The position numbers were made by a program, and so were the translations under genes. Under the pieces are notes generated by a model. The model worked only from the letters and a program-made list of their open reading frames with translations, was not told the DNA's origin and did no database searches. Shown here piece by piece: positions 25,338 to 44,165 of a stretch of DNA of 64,000 bases. How positions within the stretch are numbered: position 1 is the first letter of the stretch; every line of letters begins with the position of its first letter. Origin of the DNA: Sedimentibacter sp. SX930 (GTDB lineage Bacteria > Bacillota > Bacilli > Lactobacillales > Aerococcaceae); the NCBI GenBank assembly GCA_002155105.1, contig MUZD01000001.1, positions 248,001 to 312,000 of the forward strand. Direction: 5' to 3'.

Positions 25338-25372
25338 TGCGGAATATATTTGCAACGGCTTTTGTACAGTGT

Positions 25373-26569: not shown

Positions 26570-26587
26570 AATGTTTGTCTCCGATCT

Positions 26588-27196
26588 CTAGTTATTTTCC
26601 CAAGAAAAGTTTTCAGCTGCTTTAACGTGTGCGGCGTGGGTGTGCGATAGTTGTTTCATGATGTTGATAAACATTAGGAAGTCCTCGAACAAGCCTTCCA
26701 GCTCTTGGACCTGATCCGGATTCTTCAGGTTGTTGTCTGTGTCGAAAGCCTGCAAAGAATGGCTGAGCAGGAACTCAGAACTTGGCATGATGCGGGCTTT
26801 CAATTCCGGCGCATCCAAGATCTGACGCAAATGCGCTTGCGCCCGTGAGGAACCGAGTACGCCATAGGAAGCTCCTGTGATCATGACGGGCTTGTCGACG
26901 AAGGGGTAGATGCCGTAGGACAACCAACTCAAGGCGCTCATCAGGGAAGCGGGGACTGCGTGATCATATTCTGGTGTGCTGATGATGACGCCGTCAGCTG
27001 CTTCGATCTTTTCCGCCAAGGCTTTCGCCTCAGCCGGGATCTGCATGTCTGCCGGTTTGTCGAAGATAGGCAGGTCCTTGATTTCGACAATCTCGATGTC
27101 TGCCTTATCGGAAAAATGCTTTTGGATGTATTGCAGCAGCATACGGTTAGTGGAGTGGTCCGAGTTTGTGCCGACGAGGCCGATTAATTTATTCAT
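26588..27196 (-). CDS. NAD(P)H-dependent FMN reductase
   Basis: This 202-residue flavodoxin-fold protein is similar to the N-terminal half of the downstream gene: GLVGTNSDHSTNRMLLQYIQ, STPEYDHAVPASLMSALSWL and GASYGVLGSSRAQAHLRQIL match nearly position by position. It lacks the PAS-like and flavinylation-like parts. ATG 27196 follows GGAAGGAAG. The two reductases look like a tandem duplication within the operon, separated by 18 bp. Confidence 0.9.
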   Translation of the reverse strand: MNKLIGLVGTNSDHSTNRMLLQYIQKHFSDKADIEIVEIKDLPIFDKPADMQIPAEAKALAEKIEAADGVIISTPEYDHAVPASLMSALSWLSYGIYPFVDKPVMITGASYGVLGSSRAQAHLRQILDAPELKARIMPSSEFLLSHSLQAFDTDNNLKNPDQVQELEGLFEDFLMFINIMKQLSHTHAAHVKAAENFSWENN

Positions 27197-27249
27197 ATGA
27201 ATACTTCCTTCCAAATATTATTTTTTTTATGATTCATTTAAACACGTAA

Positions 27250-28194
27250 TTAGGCGGGCTGTTTTCGTTTCAGCCGGTTTTCCAAGCCTTTGGAGCAGAT
27301 GAGGCCGCCGTCTTTCATGATCAGGATGCCGTCGATTGTTTCGGATTGGTCCAATGTGGCGAGGATCACGTCGGCAGGTTGGCCGAACAAGCGGGTCGTC
27401 CAGATTTCCCCATCGACAGAGTCATCGGCAACCACGGTCAGGCTGATGACATCTGTTTCTGCCGGATAGCCGGTTTTGGGGTCCAGAATGTGGTGATAGT
27501 GCTTTCCTTGGGCTTCCAGCTGCCTTTCATATACACCGGAGGTAACCGCTGATTGGTTCTGGATCTTCAATACCGCGCTATAGTGCGCGCGGGGGAGCAG
27601 TGGGTTTTGGATGCCGATGCGCCAATAGGGATCTTCATGATTCTGGGATGGTCCGAACACGATGACATTTCCGCCCAAATTGATGAGAGCGGAAGCTACG
27701 CCGGCTTCCTTGAAGTATGCCGTCAGTAGATCGGCAATATAGCCTTTTGCCACAGCCCCCAAGTCGATCGCCATGCCTTCTTGCTGAAGGAAAACGGTCT
27801 GGTTCTTCTCGGACAAGAGGATTTTGTTGGGATCGGTGATTGCGAGAAGCCTCTGAATCTCTTCGGCATTCGGGACTTTTGCATCACCGAAACCGATCCG
27901 CCAAGTCTGCACCAACGGTCCAATCGCGATATTCAGATGACTGCCAGGAGCTAAGCTGTGGTATTTCCCCACCTTGATCAAGTGGAACAAATCAGGATGG
28001 ACGGCAAGAGGTGCTTTCCCTGCCAAGTGATTGATCTGCATCAGCTCCGACGTTGGATCATTGGCGCTGAACCGCTGTTCGTATATTCGCAGGCGTCGGA
28101 TCGCCTCCTCCAAAATAGCATCAGGGTGCGTGTGTGTCACAAGCAGATCGATGATCGTTCCCATCAGACGGACCGTTGCCTTCTTTTGTTCCAT
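27250..28194 (-). CDS. ApbE-like FAD:protein FMN transferase
   Basis: ApbE enzymes use FAD to attach FMN to a Ser/Thr of target proteins. The 314-residue protein has RFSANDPTSELMQIN near residue 51, the conserved AIDLGAVAKGYIADLL at about 142-157, GGNVIVFG, and the metal-site region LDPKTGYPAETDVISLTVVA. It has no lipoprotein signal, unlike most extracytoplasmic ApbE proteins, so it should act in the cytosol. ATG 28194 lies behind GGTGGGGG. It is the second gene of the operon and its likely substrate is encoded two genes downstream. Confidence 0.9.
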   Translation of the reverse strand: MEQKKATVRLMGTIIDLLVTHTHPDAILEEAIRRLRIYEQRFSANDPTSELMQINHLAGKAPLAVHPDLFHLIKVGKYHSLAPGSHLNIAIGPLVQTWRIGFGDAKVPNAEEIQRLLAITDPNKILLSEKNQTVFLQQEGMAIDLGAVAKGYIADLLTAYFKEAGVASALINLGGNVIVFGPSQNHEDPYWRIGIQNPLLPRAHYSAVLKIQNQSAVTSGVYERQLEAQGKHYHHILDPKTGYPAETDVISLTVVADDSVDGEIWTTRLFGQPADVILATLDQSETIDGILIMKDGGLICSKGLENRLKRKQPA

Positions 28195-28222
28195 TTTTTC
28201 CCCCACCTTCAGGATAAACATG

Positions 28223-29101
28223 TCATTCTTTTACGGGATTCCCTGAAAGGATCTCGCTTTCTAACTGCGCCAATTCTTTCAGCGCGATCGTGTTTTTGTT
28301 GATTTTTGAATAGGCTCTGGCATCGTAGATCAATTCCAGCACCTCTTGCTGCGGCTTCTCTTGGATGATGGCATTTTTGGCCAACTGGATGGCTGCACGG
28401 GCAAGATAGTAGGTCACGTGATTGTCTGAACAAATGGAGACAGCATAGGAAAGCAGTGCATTACTCAGTTCAATTTCATTGATGAGGGAATAGAAGGTAC
28501 CGCTTTGGAAAACAATATTCAGTACACGCCAGACATCCTCCATCGTCTTAATCGGATAAGCATAAATTTTTTCCAGGACCTTACTGAAATAAAACTCTGC
28601 CTTTTCCAGTTTTTTTTCACGGCTGTAGACCATGCCGATACCGGTGTAGGCCAGCAGGCGATAGATTTCCATGTCGGCTCCATCATCCGCCAGCAAAATT
28701 TGATCGAAGGTGAACAATACATCGGTCACTGGAACCTGCTGCGCAACCATGATGAAGCCGTTCAAATAATGGAAGCGCAGTGCCAGACTGTTTTCTTCGA
28801 TTTCACTCACGGCGATGCTCTGCAGCAAGTCCGAGGCTTGGTCGTATTCACTTGTGATCAGAAAGAATTCTGCTTTGTTCATTTTTTCTGTCGCTTCTGT
28901 ATACTTGACGCCTACTTTAGGGAACAACTCCCCCAAGGGTAGATTCAGTCTGGTGCACAGCTTGATCAGAATTTTAAGATTGGGGACTTGACCATTGTTC
29001 TCAAATCGGCTCAAGGTAGCTTGTGTGCAGATGCCTTCCGCCAGTTCCATTTGCGAGAGGTTCAACGCTTTGCGGGCTTCAATAAATCGTTCAATGTTCA
29101 T
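28223..29101 (-). CDS. XRE-family HTH regulator with TPR-like C-terminal domain
   Basis: The 292-residue protein begins with an XRE helix-turn-helix (ARKALNLSQMELAEGICTQATLSRFENNG, residues about 8-36). It continues as helical repeats to the end, the architecture of peptide-responsive Rgg/PlcR/NprR-like regulators. ATG 29101 follows GGGAGG; the longer reading from 29269 would cross the promoter region. It lies just upstream of apbE on the same strand and probably controls the operon. No signalling-peptide gene was recognised nearby. Confidence 0.85.
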   Translation of the reverse strand: MNIERFIEARKALNLSQMELAEGICTQATLSRFENNGQVPNLKILIKLCTRLNLPLGELFPKVGVKYTEATEKMNKAEFFLITSEYDQASDLLQSIAVSEIEENSLALRFHYLNGFIMVAQQVPVTDVLFTFDQILLADDGADMEIYRLLAYTGIGMVYSREKKLEKAEFYFSKVLEKIYAYPIKTMEDVWRVLNIVFQSGTFYSLINEIELSNALLSYAVSICSDNHVTYYLARAAIQLAKNAIIQEKPQQEVLELIYDARAYSKINKNTIALKELAQLESEILSGNPVKE

Positions 29102-29349
29102 TTTTTCCTCCCTAATAATCAAAGCGGCTCGGATGGCAGCAGCGGAGATTCGAGTTGATATTGTGCTTTGTTTCACATTGGTTATATGAGTAATTATACG
29201 CTTACTGAATATAAGGGTCAATAGAATATATAAAAAATTATATAAAAGAATGGTTGGAAGATGCTTCACGTCTTCTGAGAAGGCTTATCATTTCCAAATT
29301 GTAAGTAAGTGTATTAGACTATTCTTACAAAGACAAAGGAGTGAGTTAG

Positions 29350-30243
29350 ATGACTGAACCTATTTTGAAGGATCCACGTGAGTTGTATCATACTGGAAAA
29401 TTTGCAGATCAGGATCAAGACACCCCGGCTTTGCAAGATAAGATGCTGCCGAAACCCGATTGCGGGGAGGAAAGCTACGTAGGCAACCACCTGCTGGAGA
29501 ATCGCCGTGTGTTGATTACCGGTGGGGATTCCGGAATCGGACGGGCTGCAGCGATAGCTTATGCCAGAGAAGGCGCCGATGTGGCGATCCAATTTTTCCC
29601 TGGTGAAGAACGCGATGCGGAAGAAGTCGCTGAATATATAAAGAAGGCCGGCAGGAAGGCTGTGTTGCTTCCATACGACCTTCGTGATGAATCCAAATAC
29701 CAAGAAATAATCGATAAAACCGTCGAAGCATTGGGCGGTCTGGACACACTTGTATTGAATGCCGCCCAGCAGATTGCGCGGGAGTCCATTTCGGAATTGC
29801 CGTTGGAACAGGTCAAAGATACGTTCACAGTCAACATCATCTCGATGTTCGGGCTGGTGAAAGCTGCTGAACCGCATCTGCCGGCGGGAGGCGCCATCAT
29901 CACGACAACATCGATCCAGGCATACGATCCAAGTGCCCATTTGATGGATTATGCCGCCACCAAGGCAGCGATCGCCAGCTTCACGATCAGCTTGGCGAAA
30001 CAGTTCGCCAAGAAAGGCATCCGCGTGAACGGGGTGGCACCGGGACCAATCTGGACGCCGTTGCAATTGGATCATGGGCAACCCGAAGGCGCTTTGCCGG
30101 AATTCGGGCAGAAAACGTTGTTGGGAAGGGCGGGGCAGCCGGTCGAACTGGCGCATGTCTACGTCTTCCTGGCATCCAACAACGCCAGCTATGTGACCGC
30201 GCAAATCTATGGCGTGACCGGTGGCGACGTAATCGATTTGTGA
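29350..30243 (+). CDS. SDR family oxidoreductase
   Basis: This is a 297-residue short-chain dehydrogenase of the longer YghA/YhdF-like type with an N-terminal extension (ILKDPRELYHTGKF). It shows the NAD(P)-binding TGGDSGIG at residues 57-64, LVLNAAQ, the catalytic Ser and YAATK pair and PGPIWTP. AAAGGAGTGAG precedes the ATG. It diverges from the regulator at 28223-29101. Substrate unknown; relatives are often stress-induced. Confidence 0.9.
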   Translation: MTEPILKDPRELYHTGKFADQDQDTPALQDKMLPKPDCGEESYVGNHLLENRRVLITGGDSGIGRAAAIAYAREGADVAIQFFPGEERDAEEVAEYIKKAGRKAVLLPYDLRDESKYQEIIDKTVEALGGLDTLVLNAAQQIARESISELPLEQVKDTFTVNIISMFGLVKAAEPHLPAGGAIITTTSIQAYDPSAHLMDYAATKAAIASFTISLAKQFAKKGIRVNGVAPGPIWTPLQLDHGQPEGALPEFGQKTLLGRAGQPVELAHVYVFLASNNASYVTAQIYGVTGGDVIDL

Positions 30244-30315
30244 TTTCTGAATCATCGATCGGAAATTGTTGAAGACACTGTACAGAAAAAGTAATTTCAA
30301 AACAAGAAGAAGGAC

Positions 30316-30350
30316 GGACGAGAGCAGCCATGTGCTCTTGTCCTTTTTAT
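30316..30350 (+). terminator. Terminator after the SDR gene
   Basis: GGACGAGAGCA (30316-30326) pairs with TGCTCTTGTCC (30333-30343), with one G-T pair, followed by TTTTTAT. Confidence 0.85.
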
Positions 30351-30647
30351 ATTATTATTTTAGAAATTAATGACATATTGGGTGAATATCAAACTTTTTG
30401 TTAGATTTACAAGTTTGTTTTGTATTGTGGACATGACCAACTTATTGTAAAGGATTAAAACGACCTTGAATTGTATTATCGAAGAAACAATAGCAAATAG
30501 AAATACTTAATATATTGATTTTCACTTTTGCTTTGTTAATAAAGCCTATAAAAAATAATGCTTTTGACTTATAATTAATAATAATAATAATATTAAAAAA
30601 ATTCATAAATAATCTGTTTAATTTATTTAGTTAAAGGATGAAGTAAT
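30351..30647. other. A+T-rich leader region of the defence island
   Basis: This 297-bp stretch is strikingly A+T-rich and contains a TAA microsatellite at about 30575-30592 but no supportable gene. It marks a sharp compositional change from the SDR gene. AAAGGATGA before ATG 30648 is the ribosome binding site. No confident promoter could be chosen. Confidence 0.6.
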
Positions 30648-32099
30648 ATGACGGATAACTTAGTTACGATTTTACCTAATGCGGCTAGTTTAATCGAAAG
30701 TATGCGTTCAATAGGTTATTCTTTTGAAACCGCTCTTGCTGATATTATTGATAATTCCATCAGTGCGAAAGCAACAAAGATCGAAATTTTTGAACGAAAA
30801 AGAAATGGATTTCATTATGTGCAAATCATTGACAACGGATTAGGAATGACTAACGACGAATTAATCGAAGCTATGCGTTTAGGGAGCAGAAATCCAACTG
30901 AAAAAAGGAATAAGGACGATCTTGGAAGATTTGGACTAGGTTTAAAATCTGCTAGTTTTTCTCAGTGTAGGGTCTTAACAGTTGTATCGAAAAAAAATAG
31001 AAAAATTAATGGATATCAATGGAATCTAGATCTTGTACAAAAAACAGATAGATTTGATGTATTAAAGTTATCAGAGGATTACTTTAAAAAATTCCAAAAT
31101 ATTAGTGAATTAGAAAAATTGGAAAGTGGCACAATAGTTCAGTGGGAGAATTTTGACAGAATTTCTGACTCCGCTCAGGATTTAGATAGTGAACTAGGCG
31201 ACTTAATGAACAAGGCAATCGATCACATAGCTTTAATATTTCATCGTTTTATAGATGAAGGATTGAAAATTTCTGTGAATTTTGAACCTGTTTTAGCAAA
31301 AGATCCGTTCTTAATAAAACACAGAGGAACACAAGAACTTAAAGAAAAAAAAGTAAAAATTGAAGGGGAAACCATTTATTTATATCCTTATGTCCTTCCA
31401 CATTACACAAAGCTCAATCAAGAAGATAAAAGAAAATCTGGAAAAATTAATGAACACTTTAAATCACAAGGTTTTTATTTATATAGAAATAAACGTTTAA
31501 TCGTTTGGGGAGATTACCTTGGCCTGGCAAAGAGAAGTGAATTAGGCAAAAATGTAAGAATTAAAGTAGATATTCCAAACAGTTTAGATTATTTGTGGGA
31601 GATTGATGTCAAGAAAAGTAGAGCAAATGTGCCTAGCAAAATTAAAAAGAACCTTCTTTCGGTAATTTCAGATGGAGAAATGGCGTCAAAAAGTGTAAAC
31701 ACATTTAGAGGGAAAAGAGAGTTTGGGAAAATTAAGCCTTTATGGGAATTTTTTGAAGAGAGGGATGGCAATTTTCACTTTGAAATCAATAAACAAAATG
31801 ATCATTATCTCCAATTTATTTCGACTCTTGACGAAAAGCAAAAACGATTATTTGAAGTATTCTTGAAATCTTTGACTGCAAGTATCCCTTATCAAACTAT
31901 CTATGCTCAAATCAGTAATGGTAGAGAAATTCAGAATAATTATGATGATTTAGTGGAATCCTTGGATGAGACTGTCCATATTCTTCGGGAAAATAATTTA
32001 CTTAATATGGATAACTGGTTGAAATCACTATTGTCAGAAGAGCCATATGCATCGAATAAAAACGCAATTGAATACATTAATAAAGAATTGGGGGATTAG
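30648..32099 (+). CDS. MORC/HSP90-like GHKL ATPase of a defence operon
   Basis: This 483-residue protein has an N-terminal GHKL ATPase: the N-box ADIIDNSISAKA (near residue 30), DNGLGM (near 61) and LGRFGLGLKSAS (near 92) are all present, followed by a transducer-like domain with the conserved KSRANVP segment. Such ATPases act as ATP-driven clamps on DNA. It is the first gene of a four-gene operon, with its TAG immediately followed by the ATG of the Z1 gene. Similar MORC-type ATPases were described computationally in restriction-modification neighbourhoods (Iyer, Abhiman and Aravind, 2008, as I recall). Its codon usage is more A+T-rich than that of its neighbours. Confidence 0.87.
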   Translation: MTDNLVTILPNAASLIESMRSIGYSFETALADIIDNSISAKATKIEIFERKRNGFHYVQIIDNGLGMTNDELIEAMRLGSRNPTEKRNKDDLGRFGLGLKSASFSQCRVLTVVSKKNRKINGYQWNLDLVQKTDRFDVLKLSEDYFKKFQNISELEKLESGTIVQWENFDRISDSAQDLDSELGDLMNKAIDHIALIFHRFIDEGLKISVNFEPVLAKDPFLIKHRGTQELKEKKVKIEGETIYLYPYVLPHYTKLNQEDKRKSGKINEHFKSQGFYLYRNKRLIVWGDYLGLAKRSELGKNVRIKVDIPNSLDYLWEIDVKKSRANVPSKIKKNLLSVISDGEMASKSVNTFRGKREFGKIKPLWEFFEERDGNFHFEINKQNDHYLQFISTLDEKQKRLFEVFLKSLTASIPYQTIYAQISNGREIQNNYDDLVESLDETVHILRENNLLNMDNWLKSLLSEEPYASNKNAIEYINKELGD

Positions 32100-34763
32100 A
32101 TGTTAAATTTTGAGGCTATGTTATTAAGTCAAATTGATATGTTAGAAACTGAGCCTGAGATTATTAAATTAGCTCAACAATTGAGAACTATACCTATGTT
32201 TTCTAATTTGGCAGAGGAAGAATACGAAAGAGCTTTAAATGTTGCTGTAAAATCTCTTAGGGAATCTTTTGGTCAAAGTTACGTTGTAGAAAGTGATGAA
32301 AAACATGTACCATGGTTTGAAGCATATTACAAAGATTTGGGTGTGACCCGTTGGGACAGATATGTTGACTATCTTCGTAATCAAAAAAAATTTGCACCTG
32401 CTGTTGTAACGGGTATGCAAAAAAATCTTTTCAAAATTACGGATCTTCTTGGAGACCCAAATGGAATGAATTTTAAGCGTAAAGGTTTAATAATAGGAGA
32501 CGTTCAATCGGGAAAGACTGCTAATTACGTTGGACTCATGAATTTAGCTACAGATGCACGCTACAAATTAATTGTTGTATTAACCGGAACTACGAATACT
32601 CTTCGGGAACAGACTCAGATTAGAATTGAAGAAGGCTTGGGAAAAGCTAAACTGAGCAAAGGCGTTTCAACTATACAAAATACAAACTACAAGGAATTTT
32701 CACATAAAAATCCAGTATATCTTACAAGCAAGCAAAGTGATTTTGACACTAACTCAAGGAAAAATATTCAACAATCTATAGAAACAACTAACGTGCCAAT
32801 TGTTATAGTTACTAAGAAAAACTCAACCGCACTACAAAATATTTATGAGTGGTTAGATAATTATAGTAAAAAAAATCCACATGACGATCATATTGATTCT
32901 TCAATACTTTTAATTGATGATGAAGCGGATTTTGCTTCAGTTAATACAATGAAGGAAGATAAAGAAAAACCTACTTCGATTAATAAGAAAATTCGTGAAA
33001 TTTTAGAGTTATTTACTAAGAGTAGTTACATTGGATTTACAGCTACACCTTATGCGAATATTTTTATTAACCCGGATAATGAAACAAAAATGTATGGACA
33101 GGACCTTTTTCCAAGAGACTACATTTACGTTTTGGGGGAGTCAGAGGAATATATTGGTGTTCAGAGTGTCTTTGGTAAGGATGCAAAGCACTCCAATATG
33201 TTGGTTCCATTAAATCCAAGTAATGTAGAAAACTATTTAATACTGAAACATAAAAAAGAAGATTTGTTTACCAGCCTAGCGCCAAGTATGATAGACGCAT
33301 TAAATTTGTTTTTTATGGCTAATGTGATTAGAGATTTAAGAGGTGATTTAACGAAACATCGTTCAATGTTAATGAATATTAGCCGGTTTACGATGATGCA
33401 CGACAAAATAAAAAGTGTAGTACTTGAATATGTTATCCAAGTACAAAAAGACGTTAGATTACATGGTAAGTTGCCTCTTGAAGAAGCTTTAAATATTCCC
33501 ACAATTGCTGCAATGAAAAAGAGTTACGACGAACATTATTCCACATTACAAGATGGTGTCTCTTTTGAAAAACTATTAAAAGGTATGAATGATTCGATCT
33601 ATCGAATTCAAGTTGCCATTGTAAATAAAGACAATAAGGAACTTGATTATTTATTGAATGAAGATGAAGGTGAACGAGTAATTGTTATTGGAGGGTTTGC
33701 ACTTTCGCGTGGTTTAACACTTGAGGGATTAATGATCAGTTATTATTTTCGTAATTCAGTAATGTATGATTCATTGTTGCAAATGGGCCGATGGTTTGGT
33801 TATAGACCTAATTATGCAGATCTTTGTAAAGTATACATGACTCAAGATGTGATTAGTGATTTCAAGTTCATCGCAATGGCAACAGAAGAATTGAAAGATG
33901 ATTTGGAGATAAATTCAAAGCGAGGATTAACACCTAAAGAATTTGGTATTAAGGTGAGAAGCGGTCAAACAGGTTTGATAATAACCTCAAGAAATAAGAT
34001 GCGTACAGGAAAGCAAATTACAGCACGTATTGATTTCAGTAAGGATATAGTGGAAACCACAGCTCTCACAATTGCAAATGATGAGATTAACAAACAGAAT
34101 CACAAGATTATTGAAAAGTTAATTGATAAGCACAAGGGGAGTATTTCCGATAATTTAGATCCAAATCCCAAAAATATTTCAAGAGGTTTAATTGATTTAG
34201 AAAAAGTTGACATTATTCAATTTTTAAAAGATTATACTCCAGCCCCAGGCTCGAAATTTGACAGTCAACTTATCATAAAATGGTTGAGATCTAATACATC
34301 AGAAATATTAGATAATTGGGATATGGCATTTGTCACTGGGTCAGAAAATGAAATATTTGATTACGGTAACGGAATAAAGGGAACAGCTTCTAAACGCACG
34401 ATGATAGCAGCTAAAGATTTAGAGGGAGTTTATAAAAATTCTAACTCTCGTTTAGGTTCACCAACGGATGGCAGATATGGACTTAATGAGAGTCAGTTTG
34501 AAAAAGTGAAATCAACCTATGGCGGAAAAGGCGAAACCATAGCGCAAAAAAAATATTTTGAATCTGAATTTAAACATAAACCGATAATAATAGTATATTC
34601 AGTTGTTCCAATTGATGGAGACAATCGAACAATATCGTCAGAATATATCCCGTTGCTGTCATTGGGTATTCCAGAATTAGGTTTTGGCAAAAGCAGATAT
34701 GTTGATTACAGAGTAAATAAGGTTTATCAAGATATCGAGGACCTTGAGGTGGAAGAAGAATGA
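32100..34763 (+). CDS. Z1 domain-containing SF2 helicase-like protein
   Basis: The 887-residue protein has superfamily 2 helicase hallmarks: Walker A GDVQSGKT (residues about 133-140), Walker B LLIDDEAD (about 269-276), FTATPYANIF (near 312), and the motif V/VI region GGFALSRGLTLEG and LLQMGRWFGYR (near 540-568) that belongs to the Z1 domain. It probably translocates on or remodels DNA for the associated nuclease. It begins directly at the stop of the ATPase gene and overlaps the next gene by four bases (ATGA), so the products are likely made together. Confidence 0.92.
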   Translation: MLNFEAMLLSQIDMLETEPEIIKLAQQLRTIPMFSNLAEEEYERALNVAVKSLRESFGQSYVVESDEKHVPWFEAYYKDLGVTRWDRYVDYLRNQKKFAPAVVTGMQKNLFKITDLLGDPNGMNFKRKGLIIGDVQSGKTANYVGLMNLATDARYKLIVVLTGTTNTLREQTQIRIEEGLGKAKLSKGVSTIQNTNYKEFSHKNPVYLTSKQSDFDTNSRKNIQQSIETTNVPIVIVTKKNSTALQNIYEWLDNYSKKNPHDDHIDSSILLIDDEADFASVNTMKEDKEKPTSINKKIREILELFTKSSYIGFTATPYANIFINPDNETKMYGQDLFPRDYIYVLGESEEYIGVQSVFGKDAKHSNMLVPLNPSNVENYLILKHKKEDLFTSLAPSMIDALNLFFMANVIRDLRGDLTKHRSMLMNISRFTMMHDKIKSVVLEYVIQVQKDVRLHGKLPLEEALNIPTIAAMKKSYDEHYSTLQDGVSFEKLLKGMNDSIYRIQVAIVNKDNKELDYLLNEDEGERVIVIGGFALSRGLTLEGLMISYYFRNSVMYDSLLQMGRWFGYRPNYADLCKVYMTQDVISDFKFIAMATEELKDDLEINSKRGLTPKEFGIKVRSGQTGLIITSRNKMRTGKQITARIDFSKDIVETTALTIANDEINKQNHKIIEKLIDKHKGSISDNLDPNPKNISRGLIDLEKVDIIQFLKDYTPAPGSKFDSQLIIKWLRSNTSEILDNWDMAFVTGSENEIFDYGNGIKGTASKRTMIAAKDLEGVYKNSNSRLGSPTDGRYGLNESQFEKVKSTYGGKGETIAQKKYFESEFKHKPIIIVYSVVPIDGDNRTISSEYIPLLSLGIPELGFGKSRYVDYRVNKVYQDIEDLEVEEE

Positions 34764-35728
34764 TAAATGAAAACAGATTTAGTGAATACAAGCATACTTT
34801 TTCTGAAATTCAAAAGGATATTGAAGAAGATAAAAATGTATTTACACCACAAAAAATTGGAAAAAGGGTTAAGCTCCTTGCTGGAATAGACCAAGGAAAA
34901 TATGCAATATCTGTTCGGTCCGAAGAGCGAGAAATTGCTTTAACCAGCACTGAATTAATTCATGTTCGAAAGATATTAATCAGGCCAAAAGAAATGGCTA
35001 CAATATTTGTTTTAAGTGATGAACAGCTCCTATCAATATTCATTGCATTCGCAATCGATTTAGAAACTGTTATTGATACAGATGATAATGTTTCGATAGT
35101 GGAGATTTATAACAGATATCTTTATTGGCAAAAAATGTTCAAAGTCGAAATGCAAAAAGTACAAGAAGCTACAATAAAAGGTTTAATTAACGAGTTACAT
35201 ATTTTGGAAACTTATATGTTTTCAAAATATGGTTCCGACGAGGCAGTCCGTGGTTGGGTAGGGTCAGAGAACGATCACAAAGATTTTGCTTATAGTGACG
35301 CAATGTGGTATGAGGCTAAGGCAATCAATGTCGGTAAAGTTACGGTTAAGATATCCTCAATCGAACAACTTCAAGCGAATAGTCACGGAGTATTAATAAT
35401 TTCTGAATTAGAAAAAACAAGTTCTGAAAATTCAAATGGAGTAAGATTATTTGATCAGATAAATAGAATCAAAGAAAAAATAGAACTTGAAGATGTTGAA
35501 CTAAGTTTTCTTAACAAAATTAGCTTGATAGGTTTCTCGCTAGATATCATATCTGACCCCAACCATGAAGCCAATAAATCTCGGTATATCATTCATAACG
35601 ATCGGTTTTATTCTGTAGACGATACTTTCCCAAGGATAAAGCGTGAAGATTTACCATCTGCTATTGGGCTTGTTAGTTACGAACTAATTATTGCAGAAAT
35701 TGAAGAAAAAGCCATTGATTTCAAATAA
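34760..35728 (+). CDS. PD-(D/E)XK family protein (DUF4420-like)
   Basis: The 322-residue protein has a nuclease-like core, DFAYSDAMWYEAKA, at about residues 174-188. This fits a D...(E)xK metal site (Asp, then Glu-Ala-Lys) preceded by a conserved GWVGSENDHKD. Proteins of this type (Pfam DUF4420) accompany Z1 and AIPR genes. It is the best candidate for the DNA-cutting subunit; this is inference from fold and context. ATG 34760 overlaps the Z1 stop. Confidence 0.75.
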   Translation: MINENRFSEYKHTFSEIQKDIEEDKNVFTPQKIGKRVKLLAGIDQGKYAISVRSEEREIALTSTELIHVRKILIRPKEMATIFVLSDEQLLSIFIAFAIDLETVIDTDDNVSIVEIYNRYLYWQKMFKVEMQKVQEATIKGLINELHILETYMFSKYGSDEAVRGWVGSENDHKDFAYSDAMWYEAKAINVGKVTVKISSIEQLQANSHGVLIISELEKTSSENSNGVRLFDQINRIKEKIELEDVELSFLNKISLIGFSLDIISDPNHEANKSRYIIHNDRFYSVDDTFPRIKREDLPSAIGLVSYELIIAEIEEKAIDFK

Positions 35729-35749
35729 TTAAGGAACATAGGAGAAAAA

Positions 35750-37840
35750 ATGGAACTAAAAGAGTATATTGAATCCTTTACTAATGATGTACAAGCAGAT
35801 GCAGATACTTTTCAAACAAGCATTGAAGAAGCTTTCTTGACAAATATTGCCGAAAAACTAATTGAGAATGAAACAATTTCTGAATACACTATTGGTTATT
35901 TTAAAAAGAATGGAAGACAAAATCGTAAAATTGAAATCAACGGTTATAGTTACGAGGATGCGGATGGTACTTTCAATTTTTTTGTGGTAGATGATTTAGA
36001 TGATTTTGATTCCACACTGACTAATACCAAACTTGATACTCTAATTAAGCGTGCTGAAGAGATAGTATATTGTGGCATTGAAAATAAATTTCTTGACTGG
36101 GAAGAAAGCAGTGTTGGCTATGATGTGGGAAGCCAGATTTATCGGCTCTATAATAATCGCGTAAACCAACAAATTGATTATGATCTGAAAAAAATACGGA
36201 TTTTTATACTGACCAATAAATCTTTAAGTACAAAATTTAAAAATATAAAGCGAGAATCAATACACGAAATTACTGTCGAGTTTTCTGTTTATGATGCTAC
36301 AAAATTATTTGATATGGCTAAAGCAGGTTTTGAGAAAGAACCGGTAGATATTAAATTAGCTGATTTTGGTGTTGAAGGAATACTTGCAATTCAGTGTGCG
36401 ACTAAAGAAGGGGAGTTTGAAAGCTATCTTGCACCTCTACCTGGGACAGTGTTGGCAAATATTTATTTAGCACATGGTACTCAAGTGTTAGAAGGAAATG
36501 TTCGTGCGTTTTTAAGTGTTCGAGGAAAGGTGAATAGGGGAATAAGAAAGACAATTTTAAGTGAACCTGAAAAGTTTTTCTTACTAAATAACGGTATAAC
36601 AGTTACCAGCAGTGGAATTGAAACTGAGATTCGAGCCGAGGGATTACTTATAAAAGAAATAAATGATCTGCAAATTGTTAATGGTGGACAAACTACGGCA
36701 TCTCTTGCTAATGCGATAGTTAAAGATAAAGTAGATTTGTCTAACGTTCAAGTTATGATGAAATTATCAGTTCTAAGCAGTCATGAAGTTGCCGTTAAAC
36801 TAGTTCCTGAAATATCTCGCGCTTCTAATTCACAAAATAAAGTTGACGAAGCTGATTTCTTTTCTAATCATCCATTTCATATTAAAATTGAGGAATTGTC
36901 TAAAAAAATACTTGCACCCGCTGTTGATGGAAATCAATACCAAACAGCTTGGTTCTACGAGCGTGCACGAGGACAATACACGGTTGCACAAATGAAGCTG
37001 ACTGCTGGACAAGCTAAATCATTTCAACTAAAAAATCCTAAAAAGCAAGTGATTAATAAAACTGATTTGGCAAAATATATGATGACTTATGATGGTTATC
37101 CTCACGAGTCAAGCAAAGGTGCACAATCTGTTATGAGGAAGTTTTCTTCAATTGTTCAAGGGACAGACGGTGAGGGCGGATTTTGGACAAAAGATTCTTC
37201 CATTGTAAATGAAAAATATTTTAAAGAATTGATTGCTAAAGCAATTCTGTTTAAAGAAACTGAAAAAATAGTCTCGAATTTAGATTGGTATAAGGAAGTG
37301 AAAGCCTACCGAGCCAATATAGTTGCATATACCATCGCAATCCTTTCTAAATATGCGAAAGATAGAAAAATGGAAATAGATTTAAATAAGATATGGAATA
37401 CTCAACGTATGTACGATGCTTTAGTTTATCAATGTACAATCACGTCTAAAGAAGTCTATGATTTTTTGACTGGTCCCAGAGAAACTCAGAACGTAACAGA
37501 ATGGGCCAAAAAAGAAAAATGTTGGTCAATTGCTCAGAAAAAAGAGTGGACATTTTCTCCTGGGTTTATCGAATCATTAGTTCAGGTAGTTAAAGAAAAG
37601 AAAACTGCAATTACTGAAGCTACTGTAGATTCAATGGAATTTGTCATAGAAAAAGATTCTGATTTTTGGATTCAACTAAAAAACTGGGGAAAGAAATATC
37701 TTTATCTAACACCCAAAGATGAAGGACTTTTAAATGCAGCTGTGAAAATTCATACAGATGGAAAAATTCCAACTGAGAGGCAATTTGCTGCAATCGTTGG
37801 GATTTATAATTCCTTAATTGCTAAAGGATACAGCGAATGA
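35750..37840 (+). CDS. AIPR family protein (abortive-infection phage-resistance type)
   Basis: The 696-residue protein contains the AIPR core: LPGTVLANIYLAHGTQVLEGNVRAFL (from about residue 227), KVNRGIRKTI, and FLLNNGITVT near residue 279, followed by QIVNGGQTTASLANA. AIPR proteins are linked to phage resistance, but their biochemistry is not established to my knowledge. It is the last gene of the four-gene operon (21-bp gap, AGGAG upstream). The N-terminal 200 residues may hold a further nuclease-like domain, which I could not confirm. Confidence 0.87.
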   Translation: MELKEYIESFTNDVQADADTFQTSIEEAFLTNIAEKLIENETISEYTIGYFKKNGRQNRKIEINGYSYEDADGTFNFFVVDDLDDFDSTLTNTKLDTLIKRAEEIVYCGIENKFLDWEESSVGYDVGSQIYRLYNNRVNQQIDYDLKKIRIFILTNKSLSTKFKNIKRESIHEITVEFSVYDATKLFDMAKAGFEKEPVDIKLADFGVEGILAIQCATKEGEFESYLAPLPGTVLANIYLAHGTQVLEGNVRAFLSVRGKVNRGIRKTILSEPEKFFLLNNGITVTSSGIETEIRAEGLLIKEINDLQIVNGGQTTASLANAIVKDKVDLSNVQVMMKLSVLSSHEVAVKLVPEISRASNSQNKVDEADFFSNHPFHIKIEELSKKILAPAVDGNQYQTAWFYERARGQYTVAQMKLTAGQAKSFQLKNPKKQVINKTDLAKYMMTYDGYPHESSKGAQSVMRKFSSIVQGTDGEGGFWTKDSSIVNEKYFKELIAKAILFKETEKIVSNLDWYKEVKAYRANIVAYTIAILSKYAKDRKMEIDLNKIWNTQRMYDALVYQCTITSKEVYDFLTGPRETQNVTEWAKKEKCWSIAQKKEWTFSPGFIESLVQVVKEKKTAITEATVDSMEFVIEKDSDFWIQLKNWGKKYLYLTPKDEGLLNAAVKIHTDGKIPTERQFAAIVGIYNSLIAKGYSE

Positions 37841-37888
37841 AAAAGAGACTGCAAGAGCCAAATGTTTGGCCCTTGCAGTCTTTTATTT
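37841..37888. terminator. Shared terminator between the AIPR and methyltransferase genes
   Basis: GACTGCAAGAGCCAAA (37847-37862) pairs with TTTGGCCCTTGCAGTC (37865-37880), one G-T/A-C-type mismatch in 16, flanked by A-run and T-run. It lies between two converging genes. Confidence 0.85.
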
Positions 37889-39171
37889 CATATTGCAACA
37901 TTTTTCTTTTTAATTGGGATGATGTTATCATGTTGAAAGAAACAATTCTGGATAGTAAACATCTCTTTGAAAATATGTTCCAAAACATTTACAACAATAC
38001 TATTACCAGAAAGCTTTAGAAGCTTTGAGTGGCTGAGAAAACTTCTAGATTTTGATAATTCTAAATTATTCCCCATAAGTTTATCGAAATCACTTTCATC
38101 AAAACCCATTAGTAGGAAAGTTTCTCTAGGTGTTAGATTTCTGTAGGGAGCTTTAGTCTGTTCTAAGTCTAATTCGTGTAGAATTACGCCAGCATTTGGA
38201 TTTCTATCTTGTTTAGTTGTGATAGTTTTTGCGATTAATCCCTTTGTTCGTGAGCCTTCAGCTAAAATGCTGGAATCTTTATGAATTGTTTTTCGGGATT
38301 CAGTCCAGTTTGGTGTACTTGCAATCGCTTCTTTGAGATAAACTGGATTTGTATAATCTAAGCGAAGAAAAGGCTCTATGCTCGGTTCTTCAGTGATTTG
38401 ATGCAAACAACTGTTTTCAAGATATTCATTTATTTCGCTCCAATTATCATCAACTAGTATGCTTAACATATAAGTACGGATACGATTTTGTGGAACACCA
38501 AAGTTTTTTGCATTAAGATCTAAATTGGAATAACTCCTGTATCCCATTTCTTTCAACTCATGTTTCCATGTTTCAAAGTTATCAAGGTGTCTAGGACTTT
38601 TAATCGCTGTAACATTTTCCATTAGAAGAAATCGTGGTTTTTTTAACCCTTGTTCATGATACTCTTTTAATATACGTTCAATTTCCCAGAGCAAGCTAGA
38701 GCGATTGTTTGCATTGCGGTCTATACCTGAGAAATTATTGTGCCAATAACTTGATATCGATAGATCTTGGCAAGGAAAACTGTAAGTTAGTAAGTCTGCC
38801 TCAGGGAGATCGCACGCATGTACAGAAGATATGTCAACATAGTTGTTGTTATTATTAATAGCATGTAAAATTGCTTTTAACTTATCAATAGGCATGCGTT
38901 TAAGTGAATTTTTTGATAAGGGTTGCTTTCCATCAGAACTAAGATTGAATTCACTTAGCTTTTCCATAAGATCGTTTCTTGATAGGTGCGAATATTTACT
39001 CAAATCTTGTTCTCCATGATGTAGGATGTCATACGCATACATTGCGCCAATTTCCCACTCAACGGTGGCGACAACTTCATATTTAAAATCAGGATTGTTA
39101 TCATATATTCTTTGTAGCGCCTTCGCTTGTGCGCCAATTCCCGAAAAAGTTTCAATAACTCTAAAAGTCAT
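37888..39171 (-). CDS. DNA (cytosine-5)-methyltransferase
   Basis: The 427-residue enzyme transfers methyl from S-adenosylmethionine to cytosine C5. Motif I is ETFSGIGAQ (residues 7-15), the catalytic loop is SFPCQDLS with Cys134, motif VI is MENV (184-187), motif VIII is VPQNRIRTYML, and motif X is LSGNSIVVNV. It converges on the defence operon and diverges from vsr. ATG 39171 follows GGGGGT. It would protect host DNA, as in Dcm-type restriction systems. The recognition sequence cannot be read from the protein. Confidence 0.93.
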   Translation of the reverse strand: MTFRVIETFSGIGAQAKALQRIYDNNPDFKYEVVATVEWEIGAMYAYDILHHGEQDLSKYSHLSRNDLMEKLSEFNLSSDGKQPLSKNSLKRMPIDKLKAILHAINNNNNYVDISSVHACDLPEADLLTYSFPCQDLSISSYWHNNFSGIDRNANNRSSLLWEIERILKEYHEQGLKKPRFLLMENVTAIKSPRHLDNFETWKHELKEMGYRSYSNLDLNAKNFGVPQNRIRTYMLSILVDDNWSEINEYLENSCLHQITEEPSIEPFLRLDYTNPVYLKEAIASTPNWTESRKTIHKDSSILAEGSRTKGLIAKTITTKQDRNPNAGVILHELDLEQTKAPYRNLTPRETFLLMGFDESDFDKLMGNNLELSKSRSFLSHSKLLKLSGNSIVVNVLEHIFKEMFTIQNCFFQHDNIIPIKKKNVAI

Positions 39172-39264
39172 AGTATTACCCCCAATTATCTCAATAAGCA
39201 ACTTACCTTAAAATAAGTTAGAATTCAAGGGAAATCGAATGTTTGTTTGCTATATAAGTAATTT

Positions 39265-39270
39265 ATTATA
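39265..39270 (-). promoter_or_regulatory. Extended -10 element of the methyltransferase promoter
   Basis: On the minus strand TGG-TATAAT reads across 39273-39265, about 95 bp upstream of ATG 39171. No good -35 is visible. An AACTTA...TAAGTT inverted repeat (39200-39205, 39214-39219) lies between it and the gene and could be an operator. Confidence 0.45.
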
Positions 39271-39335
39271 CCATATCGAATTTAAAATGTAGCTTTATCA
39301 TGAATTTATTTTATGTAATTGAGAGGTGGGTTATT

Positions 39336-39770
39336 TTGTCCGAAACAAGAGGGTACAGATCACAAATGATGTCTAAGATTCACTCAACCGGAGGAAAAGC
39401 AGAATCTATTTTAGCTAAAGCGCTTTGGCACGAGGGTATTAGGTATTTTAGAAATTACACCAAAATAATTGGGAAACCAGACATAGCAATCACCAAATAT
39501 AAAATTGCCATTTTTGTTGATGGTGAATTTTGGCATGGATATGATTGGGAAAACCAAAAAAAGATAAGACTCCATCACAATCGAGAATATTGGATAGAAA
39601 AGATTGAAAAAAACATCGAAAGGGATAAGTATGTAGTGGAGCAGTTGGAAAAACAAGGATGGCTAGTAATTCGATTTTGGGAAAAACAAGAAGTTTTAAG
39701 CAATCTTCCACAATGTGTCTCTAAAGTGGAAAAAGCAATTGAAGAGAGAGCTGATAGAAGTAAAAATTAA
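39336..39770 (+). CDS. vsr: Very short patch repair endonuclease (Vsr)
   Basis: Vsr nicks T:G mismatches that arise when 5-methylcytosine deaminates, and therefore accompanies m5C methyltransferases. The 144-residue frame from TTG 39336 (behind AGAGGTGGG) starts MSETRGYRSQMMSKIHSTGG and keeps Glu23, Asp49 (GKPDIAI) and VDGEFWHG with His67, then the final WLVIRFWE. ATG 39300 would add 12 residues but has no ribosome binding site. It is divergent from the methyltransferase, 164 bp away. Confidence 0.92.
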   Translation: MSETRGYRSQMMSKIHSTGGKAESILAKALWHEGIRYFRNYTKIIGKPDIAITKYKIAIFVDGEFWHGYDWENQKKIRLHHNREYWIEKIEKNIERDKYVVEQLEKQGWLVIRFWEKQEVLSNLPQCVSKVEKAIEERADRSKN

Positions 39771-39851
39771 AGTTTAATTCAAACAGGGGTGCTTTCGCTT
39801 CTCTTTTATTTTTTGCTCGCACCCCAAAATGAATAAATTCCAAAATCGCTG

Positions 39852-39900
39852 TTGACATTCGGAATCGGTTCCATTATACTCTGTTTATGAAATCGATACC
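39852..39900 (+). promoter_or_regulatory. Promoter and operators of the LacI-family gene
   Basis: TTGACA (39852-39857) and TATACT (39875-39880) have 17-bp spacing. GGAATCGGTTCC (39861-39872) lies in the spacer, and GAAATCGATACC (39889-39900) lies just after the -10. Both resemble the perfect palindrome GGTATCGATACC before the GH13 gene, so the regulator likely represses itself. Confidence 0.7.
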
Positions 39901-39924
39901 ACAAACAGGAGAGGAGTGATTCGC

Positions 39925-40923
39925 ATGGCGACGATTAAGGATGTTGCGAAAAAGGCAGGGCTGTCCGTTTCGACAGTATCCCGGTATCTGAACGACCATC
40001 CTTATATTTCGGATGATAAGAAGAAACGCATCAAAGACGCGATGGATGAATTGAACTATTCGCCCAGCTTGGTGGCGACGCAATTGCGCTCGAAAAAAGG
40101 CACCATGATTGGGATCTTGGTTTCGCGCATAACGAATCCGTTTTTCTCCTATCTGGTGGATTCGATCGAGAAGAACAGCAAGCTTTTGGGCTACAATGTG
40201 TTGGTCATGCAGACCTACGACGATCCGGCGGCTGAACTGAAGATGCTGGAAATGCTGAAGCAGCAGGTGATCACTGGTTTGATCATGTGCTCAGTCGAAG
40301 GGAATCCCGACGTGATCGAAACGTACCAGCAATACGGACCCATCGTCTTCTGCAACGAAAGGATCCCAGGTTCGACGATTCCGCAAGTCTATACGGATCA
40401 GGAACAGGCGACTTTTGAAGCCACAAACTACCTGATCGGGAAAGGCTACAAAAAAATCGCCTATTGTACGGGCGGCAGCCTGACAAAGGGCGGCCACGGA
40501 AATGCCCGGACAGCGGGATTCGAGAGGGCGCTCTTGGAAAGCCGACTTTCGATGAAGAAAGATTGGATCTTCAAGGAGGTCCACACCATCGCGGATGGCC
40601 ATCATATTGCCGAGAACATTTTGAGCTTGCCGGCAAGCAACCGCCCGGACGCGATCTTTACAGGCAGCGATGAAGTGGCAAGCGGCATTTTGCAGAAGTT
40701 CTTGGAGGCAGGGAAGAAAGTGCCCGAAGATTTGGCGATCATGGGCTTCGACAATCAACCGTTCACGGCGATGCTTGCGGTCAAGTTGACGACGATCGCG
40801 CAACCGGTCGATGCATTGGGAAGAGAAGCCACGAAAGTGTTGGTAGCGCAGATCGAAGAGACTGCTTATCAGATAGATACAACAGATTTGAAATTAGAAT
40901 TGATCGAAAGGGAATCCGCTTAG
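39925..40923 (+). CDS. LacI/GalR family transcriptional regulator
   Basis: The 332-residue repressor has an N-terminal HTH (ATIKDVAKKAGLSVSTVSRYLN) with hinge SPSLVATQLRSKK, then a periplasmic-binding-protein-like sugar domain (IGILVSRITNPFFSYLV, GSDEVASGILQ, IMGFDNQPFTAM). ATG 39925 follows GGAGAGGAG. Operators in its own promoter and before the next gene indicate local control of GH13-PTS genes. The inducer is probably a phosphorylated glucoside. Confidence 0.93.
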   Translation: MATIKDVAKKAGLSVSTVSRYLNDHPYISDDKKKRIKDAMDELNYSPSLVATQLRSKKGTMIGILVSRITNPFFSYLVDSIEKNSKLLGYNVLVMQTYDDPAAELKMLEMLKQQVITGLIMCSVEGNPDVIETYQQYGPIVFCNERIPGSTIPQVYTDQEQATFEATNYLIGKGYKKIAYCTGGSLTKGGHGNARTAGFERALLESRLSMKKDWIFKEVHTIADGHHIAENILSLPASNRPDAIFTGSDEVASGILQKFLEAGKKVPEDLAIMGFDNQPFTAMLAVKLTTIAQPVDALGREATKVLVAQIEETAYQIDTTDLKLELIERESA

Positions 40924-40948
40924 GCGGGTTCTCAAAAAACAGAAATGT

Positions 40949-40960
40949 GGTATCGATACC
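40949..40960 (+). promoter_or_regulatory. Perfect palindromic operator upstream of the GH13 gene
   Basis: GGTATCGATACC is a perfect 12-bp palindrome located 18 bp before the start codon. It shares its ATCGATACCACAAAC context with the site upstream of the LacI-family gene. No separate promoter is obvious in the 55-bp gap. Confidence 0.7.
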
Positions 40961-40978
40961 ACAAACGGAGGAGTCAGC

Positions 40979-42703
40979 ATGAAAAACGCAATCAGGGAAA
41001 GAAAGGACAGTGAACGCATGGAACAAAAGCAGTGGTGGAAAGAGGATGTCGTCTATCAGGTTTACCCGAAGAGTTTTTACGACAGCGACAACGACGGCAG
41101 TGGCGACATCAAAGGAATCACGCAGAAATTGCCTTATCTGGAGGAACTGGGGATCACGATGCTGTGGATCTGTCCGATCTTCACTTCGCCGATGGTAGAC
41201 AATGGCTATGACATTTCCGATTACCAAGGGATCCAGCCCGAGTTCGGTTCGATGGGTGATTTTGAGGAATTGCTGGATGAAGCCAAGAAGCGGAACATCA
41301 GCATCATCCTGGATTTGGTGGTGAACCATACTTCTGATGAACATGATTGGTTCAAACAGGCATTGCGCGATCCGGAAAGCAAATACCGGGATTATTATAT
41401 CTTCAAAGAAGGCAAAGACGGAAACCCGCCTAACAACTGGCGATCCATTTTCGGCGGCAGTGTTTGGGAGAAAGTGCCGGGCGAAGAAAACCTGTATTAC
41501 TTCCATACATTCGACAGAAGACAGCCGGACCTGAACTGGGAAAACCCAGCATTGCGTGAGGAAATCTACGCGATGATCAATTGGTGGCTGGAGAAAGGCA
41601 TCGCCGGTTTCCGCATCGACTCCATCACCTTCATCAAAAAGGATCAGGATTACAGCGATGTACCGGCCGATGGCGCCGATGGATTGGCCAGCGTGAAGCA
41701 CAAGGGCAGGAACCGGCCGGGAATCGCCGACTTCTTGGCGGAACTGAACAAAAAAACATTCAACAATTATCCATGCGTTTCTGTTGGCGAAGCGCCCGGT
41801 GTGACTTATGATGAATTTGACCAATACATCGGTGAAGGCGGCTATTTCAACATGATCTTCGATTTCCACTATGCGGATATCGATGTGGAGAACGGCAGCG
41901 AATGGTTCCGCAAAACCGACTGGCAGCCGAAGGAACTGAAGGAACTGATTTTCGAAAGCCAAAAAGCTATCCAAAAATCGGGCTGGGGAGCGAACTTCCT
42001 GGAAAACCACGACCAGCCGCGGTCCATTTCCAAATATATCAAGGAAGAAGCTTATCAGAATGAAATCGGCGCGAAAGCCTTGGGAACGCTCTTCTTCTTT
42101 TTGCGGGGGACGCCATACATCTATCAAGGGCAGGAAATCGGGATGAAGAATTTCAAACGGGATACAATCGCTGACTTCAATGATGTGTCCAGCCTGGATA
42201 ACTATCCGCGCGCGATGCTGGAGGGCTTCACTGCGGAAGAATCGCTCGCCTTTGTGAACCAGCGCTCCCGCGACAACGGGCGCACGCCTTTCCAATGGGA
42301 CGCCACGAAAAATGCCGGATTCAATGAGGGAGCGGAACCTTGGCTCAAACTGGTGGGCGATCACGAAGAAGTGAACGCTGCGGACCAAGTGAACGATCCT
42401 GATTCCATCTTCAGCTTCTATAAAAAGATGATCCAGCTCAGGAATCATTCAACGCACAAGGATACGCTGATTTATGGAGAATTCAGGCCGATGGATACGC
42501 CGGATGCGGTGATTGGCTACGAGCGCGTCGGAGATGAGCTCATCCAGATTTTAGTGAACATGAGCAATAAAGAAACCGCAATTGAGAAGGTTTCCGGAGA
42601 AATCTTATTGAACAATTATGCAACCATTGAACAATCCGGAACGCAATCGATTTTAAAACCATACCAAGCCATCGTAATCAGAAAGGATGAAGAAAATGTC
42701 TAA
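40979..42703 (+). CDS. GH13 alpha-glucosidase (oligo-1,6-glucosidase / phospho-glucoside hydrolase type)
   Basis: The 574-residue TIM-barrel hydrolase has the catalytic set of GH13: nucleophile Asp in GFRIDSI (near residue 214), acid Glu in VGEAPG (near 271) and the third Asp in ENHDQPR (near 345). It lacks a signal peptide and sits before a PTS EII gene, so the substrate may be a disaccharide imported as a phosphate (trehalose-6-P or a sucrose isomer). MalL-type activity on free isomaltosides is equally possible. ATG 40979 is six bases behind GGAGG; ATG 41018 is an alternative closer to family N-termini. Confidence 0.87.
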   Translation: MKNAIRERKDSERMEQKQWWKEDVVYQVYPKSFYDSDNDGSGDIKGITQKLPYLEELGITMLWICPIFTSPMVDNGYDISDYQGIQPEFGSMGDFEELLDEAKKRNISIILDLVVNHTSDEHDWFKQALRDPESKYRDYYIFKEGKDGNPPNNWRSIFGGSVWEKVPGEENLYYFHTFDRRQPDLNWENPALREEIYAMINWWLEKGIAGFRIDSITFIKKDQDYSDVPADGADGLASVKHKGRNRPGIADFLAELNKKTFNNYPCVSVGEAPGVTYDEFDQYIGEGGYFNMIFDFHYADIDVENGSEWFRKTDWQPKELKELIFESQKAIQKSGWGANFLENHDQPRSISKYIKEEAYQNEIGAKALGTLFFFLRGTPYIYQGQEIGMKNFKRDTIADFNDVSSLDNYPRAMLEGFTAEESLAFVNQRSRDNGRTPFQWDATKNAGFNEGAEPWLKLVGDHEEVNAADQVNDPDSIFSFYKKMIQLRNHSTHKDTLIYGEFRPMDTPDAVIGYERVGDELIQILVNMSNKETAIEKVSGEILLNNYATIEQSGTQSILKPYQAIVIRKDEENV

Positions 42704-44117: not shown

Positions 44118-44122
44118 TTTTC

Positions 44123-44165
44123 AGACCGACTATCCATGTTAACATGCGGATAGTCGGTCTTTTTG
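44123..44165 (+). terminator. Terminator after the PTS gene
   Basis: AGACCGACTATCC (44123-44135) pairs perfectly with GGATAGTCGGTCT (44148-44160), with a smaller inner ATGTTAACAT palindrome, then TTTTT. Confidence 0.9.

Follow-up and report, generated by a model that had tools for sequence, protein, structure and literature searches.

Results

Gene content and conserved motifs

The window, i.e., the complete stretch of 64,000 nucleotides analyzed here, harbors a set of six genes (Table 1), whose reading frames are all open at the coordinates given in the initial annotation. Four of them, encoding a GHKL ATPase, an SF2 motor with a Z1 domain, a DUF4420 protein and an AIPR protein (in the following referred to as the core), succeed each other with a zero gap, a 4-bp overlap and a 21-bp gap, exactly as had been reported. 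The gene for a C5-cytosine DNA methyltransferase (MTase) is convergent to this operon and the Vsr gene is divergent from the MTase gene. For the MTase, ATG 39171, which is preceded by a plausible ribosome-binding site, is a likelier start than TTG 39201, and for Vsr the start is probably TTG 39336, located behind AGAGGTGG as a plausible ribosome-binding site. Terminator-like sites between 30200 and 39950 amount to 6 versus 4.3 expected from shuffles, and an Rfam search gave no match within 25000-45000.

Table 1. Features of the locus, with positions referring to the window.
Feature	Position	Strand	Length or remark
GHKL ATPase with S5-fold MORC motif, MzaB-like	30648..32099	+	483 aa
SF2 motor with Z1 domain, MzaC-like	32100..34763	+	887 aa
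DUF4420 putative PD-(D/E)XK nuclease, MzaD-like	34760..35728	+	322 aa
AIPR protein with AIPR_N domain, MzaE-like	35750..37840	+	696 aa
Hairpin with 16-bp stem separating the AIPR gene from the convergent MTase gene	37846..37881	-	terminator-like on the minus strand
C5-cytosine DNA methyltransferase (MTase)	ORF 37888-39201, likelier 37888..39171	-	437 aa / 427 aa
Vsr-type mismatch endonuclease	ORF 39300..39770	+	156 aa; 144 aa from TTG 39336
Low-GC island	30238..39825	.	about 9.6 kb; limits from homology to two same-genus genomes

The Pfam assignments of the six proteins are far beyond chance and agree with the domains that had been named from the sequence: HATPase_c_3 (4e-36) in the protein 30648-32099, Z1 (5.7e-70) in 32100-34763, DUF4420 (7e-37, 'putative PD-(D/E)XK family member') in 34760-35728, AIPR (7.2e-97) plus AIPR_N (1.7e-23) in 35750-37840, DNA_methylase (1.3e-47) in the MTase and Vsr (1.5e-24) in the Vsr protein. 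A known sequence-reading domain was absent from the Pfam matches of all four core proteins.

Conserved residues were deduced from four alignments comprising 17 Z1 proteins (A1) and the window protein together with 62 of 64 listed DUF4420 references (A2), 65 of 67 listed AIPR references (A3) or 35 of 66 GHKL references (A4), all references having been listed under limits for length and start codon. The key ATPase, helicase and methyltransferase motifs had been described as intact, and the respective residues are indeed present. In the GHKL protein, the ATP-binding residues are conserved in all 36 aligned rows and GFYLYRNKRLI at residues 275-285 fits the MORC motif GhXhhpXXRhl, which is found in 33 of these rows; the nearest solved sequence relatives of the GHKL profile are MORC2, MORC4, MORC3 and MutL. 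In the Z1 protein, QSGKT as Walker A and DDE as Walker B are likewise kept in all 17 rows, and DSLLQMGRWFG at residue 557 shows only one conservative change, DS for DT, in relation to DThhQXuRhFG, a motif present with DT or DS in 16 of the 17 rows and with DT in 14, while the C-terminal region of this protein (about residues 781-880) is variable. All 63 aligned rows share residues E145, D175, E185, K187 and Q203 of the DUF4420 protein, K187 being the lysine of the YEAK motif highlighted in the initial annotation. The AIPR domain bears the polar motifs NNG at 280 (66/66 rows), NGGQT at 311 (64/66), N-x-QN at 360 (64/66) and ER-x-RG at 404 (60/66), the conserved residues of which appear, as judged from the alignment, to form an enzyme-like set. 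The MTase shows the motifs FSGIG, PC, ENV, QNRIR and GNS. The names of the MORC, Z1 and RE-fold motifs are those of Iyer et al. (2008; PMC2292703).

The nuclease fold proposed for the protein starting at 34760 is supported by the Pfam result and the invariant E-D-ExK-Q set, but it was not recovered at the structural level. Its model is confident (pLDDT 92.5, pTM 0.79) but gave no match at an E value of 0.001 or better when searched against PDB and BFVD, and hence independent confirmation of the fold was not obtained from these two libraries; the top-listed matches, kinases and polymerases, show TM values of about 0.1-0.2 and are meaningless. The AIPR model (pLDDT 89.9, pTM 0.59) also gave no fold match at E 0.001 or better. 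Among its low-ranked matches (E 0.27-3.6, match ranges not shown) are HamA of Hachiman, AF1548, McrC, Can2 and Bax1, which are nuclease-like or nuclease-linked proteins. A PD-(D/E)XK-like AIPR_N domain would fit these matches and may be considered as a lead only, against which stands that a conserved ExK is absent and that the window protein has N at position 64, where D is found in 57 of 66 rows.

A genomic island in a variable chromosomal gap

From about 30.3 to 39.8 kb, the GC content is 0.32-0.35 compared to 0.45-0.52 in the adjoining 5 kb on each side. This island is bordered by an SDR gene on one side and by a LacI-type regulator with an alpha-phosphotrehalase-like gene on the other. In two genomes of the same genus (G069 and G066), the left flank is homologous up to 30237 and the right flank from 39826 on, leaving only about 78 bp (78 or 79) in between. 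Different DNA occupies the gap in three other genomes. In one of the same species (G068), it encodes a MutH-domain protein together with two m5C MTases, GHKL and Vsr proteins; in the same-genus genome G062 it carries a type I restriction-modification (R-M) set and in the same-genus genome G060 a gene for an AAA_13/SMC-like protein. As it is empty in two and differently filled in three genomes, the gap can be regarded as a site of defence gene turnover. The locus makes a good test case, since the copy in the window is compact and intact and the corresponding site is naturally empty in sister genomes.

Besides, the SDR-LacI gap as seen in loci L057, L058, L059, L060 and L061 resembles a defence hotspot in the genus, with partial SDR copies persisting in L058 and L059 where the right flank begins. 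To the left of the island, window positions 28223-29269 encode a helix-turn-helix plus TPR regulator-like protein, which is considered to lie outside because its flank also occurs in genomes without the island. Genes for ribosomal proteins, SecY and RpoA are found within window positions 1-24600, placing the island not far from core chromosomal genes.

Distribution and relatives

Within the family, any Z1 match was obtained in 11 of 76 genomes (own included), several of which represent another Z1 system. At 1e-30, matches to the GHKL protein were obtained in 10 of 398 genomes at the class level and in 5 of 398 at the phylum level, the own one being included in each case. The spread of the system is patchy. 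The best relative found resides in G092 (locus L055), with identities of 59, 61, 46 and 67% for the four core genes and a convergent MTase 63% identical to that of the window; Vsr was not detected at this locus.

When the GTDB genome contigs were scanned with the 17-row Z1 alignment, at least 582 matching stretches were found, from which the best 80 loci were kept; using a single Z1 protein as query, the scan gave no match. All four core genes, as identified with local profiles, are present in 74 of these best 80 loci, which come from many phyla as judged from the record titles. Among the remaining six, DUF4420 was not detected in L119 and L125 and GHKL not in L175, L133 and L187 are short contigs showing GHKL and Z1 only, and L180 is cut by a contig end. 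From the plasmid records with a Z1 match 11 of 39 were retrieved, from those of the phage collection 1 of 6. A Helicobacter plasmid (L104) bears a Z1 gene near genes for a HaeIII-family enzyme and an MTase, and a Priestia plasmid (L107) a Z1-DUF4420 pair near genes for an AlwI-family enzyme and an MTase; MORC and AIPR were not detected in either stretch. Broken or interrupted copies also exist (L063, L064, L065 and L094), having a shortened or split Z1 gene, a fragmented GHKL gene or ORFs between the Z1 halves.

Association with methyltransferase, Vsr and sigma factor genes

Using an MTase profile built from earlier loci of this system, by which dissimilar MTases could be missed, an m5C MTase was found within 4 kb of the core in 56 of the 58 loci that, among the best 80, possess at least 4 kb of flank on both sides. 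In the two exceptions (L112 and L184), MTase ORFs are located farther off. With the same flank criterion, Vsr lies within 5 kb of the core in 41 of the 58 loci. The count of MTase ORFs is 78 for 563 kb near the core versus 9 for 434 kb farther out, and in many loci the MTase gene is co-directional and directly beside the core. A set of loci with GHKL and Z1 collected earlier by hand (window included) gives a similar picture, having an MTase in view in 23 of 24 cases, that of L108 being taken from the record's own annotation, and Vsr in 10 of 24; in this set, L063 has its MTase at a distance of about 4.5 kb, L065 is fragmented and L094 lacks an MTase. The linkage to an MTase is near-constant across both locus sets and is therefore considered a property of the system. 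Hence, the co-occurrence in other genomes, the loss of which the initial annotation had named as a refutation of its own proposal, held, and both the operon structure and its tie to MTase and Vsr are supported.

A profile of two linked sigma factors did not reveal an MzaA-like sigma factor when compared with the ORFs of 90 aa or more located between window positions 20001 and 50000, and MzaA was not among the PADLOC matches shown for the six window proteins. With the same profile, a sigma-like ORF was obtained in only two of the best 80 loci (L113 and L178), in both cases weakly. A linked MzaA-like sigma factor is no property of the system.

Relationship to known systems

The individual protein families had been regarded as known from restriction neighborhoods, which is correct, but the operon as a whole is already in print as well. 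Iyer, Abhiman and Aravind (2008) described a third type of MORC/Z1 operon as a predicted R-M system, in which methylases and Vsr are frequent and AIPR is part of the neighborhood graph (PMC2292703). It shares with the window a MORC GHKL+S5 protein, an SF2 helicase with Z1 motif, an RE-fold protein 'NRE' with E-D-ExK, cytosine methylases, Vsr and AIPR in the neighborhood, and nothing in the cited part of that paper is decisively different, the Z1 motif of the window beginning with DS and not DT (PMC2292703). Later, Miller et al. (2022) presented a 'Type II' putative defence system with about 20% identity to mzaBCDE (PMC9523054). By its content as described in the cited passage, it likewise combines Z1, PD-(D/E)XK, cytosine methyltransferase, AIPR and MORC-family proteins, but also has a linked transcriptional regulator, which was not identified at the window locus. 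That the mechanism has not been established, as initially stated, agrees with our searches of open-licence papers, among which a mechanistic dissection of the MTase-linked form was not found. As far as could be seen, the window therefore contains a good, intact member of a known, apparently undissected kind, whose prediction dates from 2008 and which occurs in many phyla. This kind is relevant to the beginnings of the interplay between MORC ATPases and methylated DNA, the bacterial enzymes having been proposed as ancestors of the eukaryotic chromatin MORCs (PMC2292703).

Two further known systems are close but not identical. With MzaABCDE (Gao_Mza), the window shares components B, C, D and E in the same order, and PADLOC as well as NCBIfam models recognize all four. 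However, the sigma factor was not found and the NCBIfam bit scores are far below the equivalog cut-offs (274/850, 441/1500, 64/420 and 294/1050), so that the window system is not a strict MzaABCDE. With the CglI/NgoAVII systems (N-R-M), it has the Z1-domain SF2 motor and an m5C MTase in common, whereas it possesses MORC, DUF4420 and AIPR proteins and the R protein described there is a PLD nuclease with B3 domain (PMC4267653). As RE_NgoFVII or PLD gave no Pfam match in any of the six window proteins, i.e., the PLD-B3 protein is absent, the window system is not of the CglI/NgoAVII type. A Corynebacterium island with Z1, DUF4420, a Dcm-like methylase and an EcoRII-like enzyme has also been published (PMC5379612).

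Proposed function and alternative explanations

Based on gene content, motifs, conserved gene order and the near-constant m5C MTase linkage as observed, we infer with a probability of about 0.62 that the six genes constitute one ATP-dependent R-M system on a mobile island, with GHKL-Z1-DUF4420-AIPR restricting, the m5C MTase modifying and Vsr mending deamination. On this view, unmarked DNA would be restricted in the following succession of steps. The MTase would mark target sites in the host and Vsr would mend the m5C deamination caused by this marking, while the core complex would load on DNA without the mark. The Z1 SF2 motor might then translocate by analogy with its CglI/NgoAVII counterpart, which shows ATPase activity, coupled to cleavage, on DNA bearing unmethylated sites and for which translocation has been proposed (PMC4267653). 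The MORC-type GHKL dimer would close as a clamp or, alternatively, loop DNA, and the DUF4420 PD-(D/E)XK protein would be the one to cut. AIPR would participate as a near-constant partner. In support of a loop, MORCs in R-M operons have been proposed to loop DNA between recognition and cleavage sites (Iyer et al., PMC2292703), and as to a clamp, MORC-1 of Caenorhabditis elegans topologically entraps DNA (PMC8277788) and a Shedu protein having GHKL ATPase and PD-(D/E)XK nuclease domains has been proposed to act in this way (PMC12137116). The site-reading part might be sought in the Z1 protein (see below).

The chief rival to the R-M reading is a core acting independently of the MTase, which would sense another feature of phage DNA or replication, as MzaABCDE may do, with MTase and Vsr being neighbors with another task, for example, protection from other restriction. 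The MzaB-E models recognize each of the four core proteins, and MzaABCDE is called validated in the cited passage of PMC9523054, where mzaA is a sigma factor and an MTase is not among the named parts, suggesting that the core may not need one. Moreover, the MTase gene of the window is convergent to the operon and, consequently, not co-transcribed with the core. This explanation is nevertheless unlikely when considering that 56 of the 58 loci with sufficient flank among the best 80 have an MTase at a distance of up to 4 kb, that MTases are much rarer farther out, and that in other loci it is often co-directional and directly beside the core.

The name of AIPR derives from abortive infection, and AIPR could also be an effector stopping or killing the infected cell, with GHKL-Z1-DUF4420 serving as sensor. 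Indeed, the PADLOC AbiU model matches the window AIPR at 1.7e-24 and the enzyme-like polar residues of the AIPR domain would suit an effector, but the DUF4420 nuclease site, needless in a pure sensor, is kept in 63 of 63 rows and the MTase linkage suggests self-marking, rendering this scenario clearly improbable. A module for repair or recombination, in which a MutL-like ATPase, helicase, nuclease and Vsr would act on mismatches at methylated sites, might explain why the GHKL protein also resembles MutL and why Vsr is often adjacent (41 of 58 loci among the best 80). It is, however, hardly reconcilable with the patchy spread (10 of 398 class-level genomes, own included) and the island position, the same gap holding R-M or other genes in sister strains, and is by far the least probable of the explanations.

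Methyltransferase subfamily and target

Compared with the window MTase, the enzymes of six MORC-Z1 loci (L055, L056, L064, L119, L166 and L169) show 44-63% identity and those of three more (L140, L168 and L179) 37-41%. Identities of 47-53% were obtained for the MTases encoded by eight NgoFVII-type Z1 loci (L067-L074), while other matched MTases show about 23-30%, mostly over partial length, with the exception of one viral-contig locus (36%). These values place the window MTase in a subfamily common to MORC-Z1 and NgoFVII-type Z1 systems, a lead which may be new. As the subfamily occurs beside two different Z1 machines, MTases are exchanged between loci while the core stays, which would fit a modification partner that is needed yet replaceable.

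The MTase gene of L074 neighbors one for a PLD-B3 nuclease of the NgoFVII family according to Pfam, with homologues in L067-L073 at 28-33% identity. This locus, whose source genome belongs to the same genus as that of the window, comprises a Z1 system with the PLD-B3 nuclease, an m5C MTase and three proteins without Pfam match; for its R protein, no PDB sequence match was obtained at E 0.01. A kinship of the NgoFVII-type accessory proteins with DUF4420, AIPR or GHKL was considered but is unsupported by 12 profile comparisons over the eight loci, the highest hhalign probability being 14.6 (E 0.0019, 35 columns) for x307 versus GHKL, with the x307 group containing one extra L070 ORF from another position.

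Within the stretch presumed to be the target recognition domain, 17 of 18 rows (all but L168) have almost the same sequence around TITTKQDRNPNxG. TxSR is found in all 18, with a preceding STP shared by the window, by L055 and L119 and by six of the eight loci of the NgoFVII type. However, identical positions are less frequent in the recognition stretch than in the catalytic part, 53/100 versus 94/138 in L055 and 36-45/100 versus 69-89/138 in the eight NgoFVII-type loci, and this weaker conservation would speak against a shared target. The closest solved sequence relative over near the whole length of the MTase is PDB 4dkj ('Cytosine-specific methyltransferase', 9.3e-43), which we assume to be the CG-specific M.MpeI. 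A CG specificity was set aside, as the target-recognition stretch aligns poorly with this structure. M.BatI was likewise considered for specificity, and a link to the MORC-Z1 system was not found in the cited part of PMC8936443. GCSGC is the sequence methylated in CglI and NgoAVII, which are related systems (PMC4267653), so that a GCNGC-type target is a fair guess, but no more.

The Z1 C-terminal region as candidate site reader

If MTases are exchanged, the core part reading the same site should change with them. Among the 84 of 96 loci having a full-length core plus MTase, Z1 similarity correlates with MTase similarity at a partial r of 0.159 given the other three core proteins, compared to 0.074 for AIPR, 0.049 for DUF4420 and -0.002 for GHKL. 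In sliding windows, the top three positions fall within Z1 801-860 (r 0.19-0.22), followed by the conserved motor stretches Z1 111-160 and 561-610 at 0.16-0.18, and some windows, including Z1 261-310, go down to -0.13. The maximum over windows from 200 label shuffles has its 95% point at 0.129 and never exceeded 0.154, in shuffles made without correction for ancestry. The C-terminal Z1 windows remain at or near the top in core-identity subsets and when leaving out the MTase subfamily of the window. Furthermore, the MTase sits at the core ends, and proximity alone would favor AIPR or GHKL. Since the effects are small (partial r about 0.2) and the shuffles ignore ancestry, the covariation of Z1 and MTase is taken as a lead, a weak one, pointing to the Z1 C-terminal region as the part possibly reading the target site, which may be new.

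Going beyond this, one might envisage a distinct class of ATP-dependent restriction in which the target is chosen by the Z1 C-terminal region, the m5C MTase is exchangeable, the MORC clamp and AIPR license the cut, and the NgoFVII-type Z1 machines sharing the MTase subfamily would perhaps have the same target, a picture that we consider rather doubtful.

As a minor observation on the MTase, a 172-aa open frame in another same-genus genome (G063:C38:184335-184823, L239) corresponds to the C-terminal part of the MTase only, with 55% over query positions 260-427.
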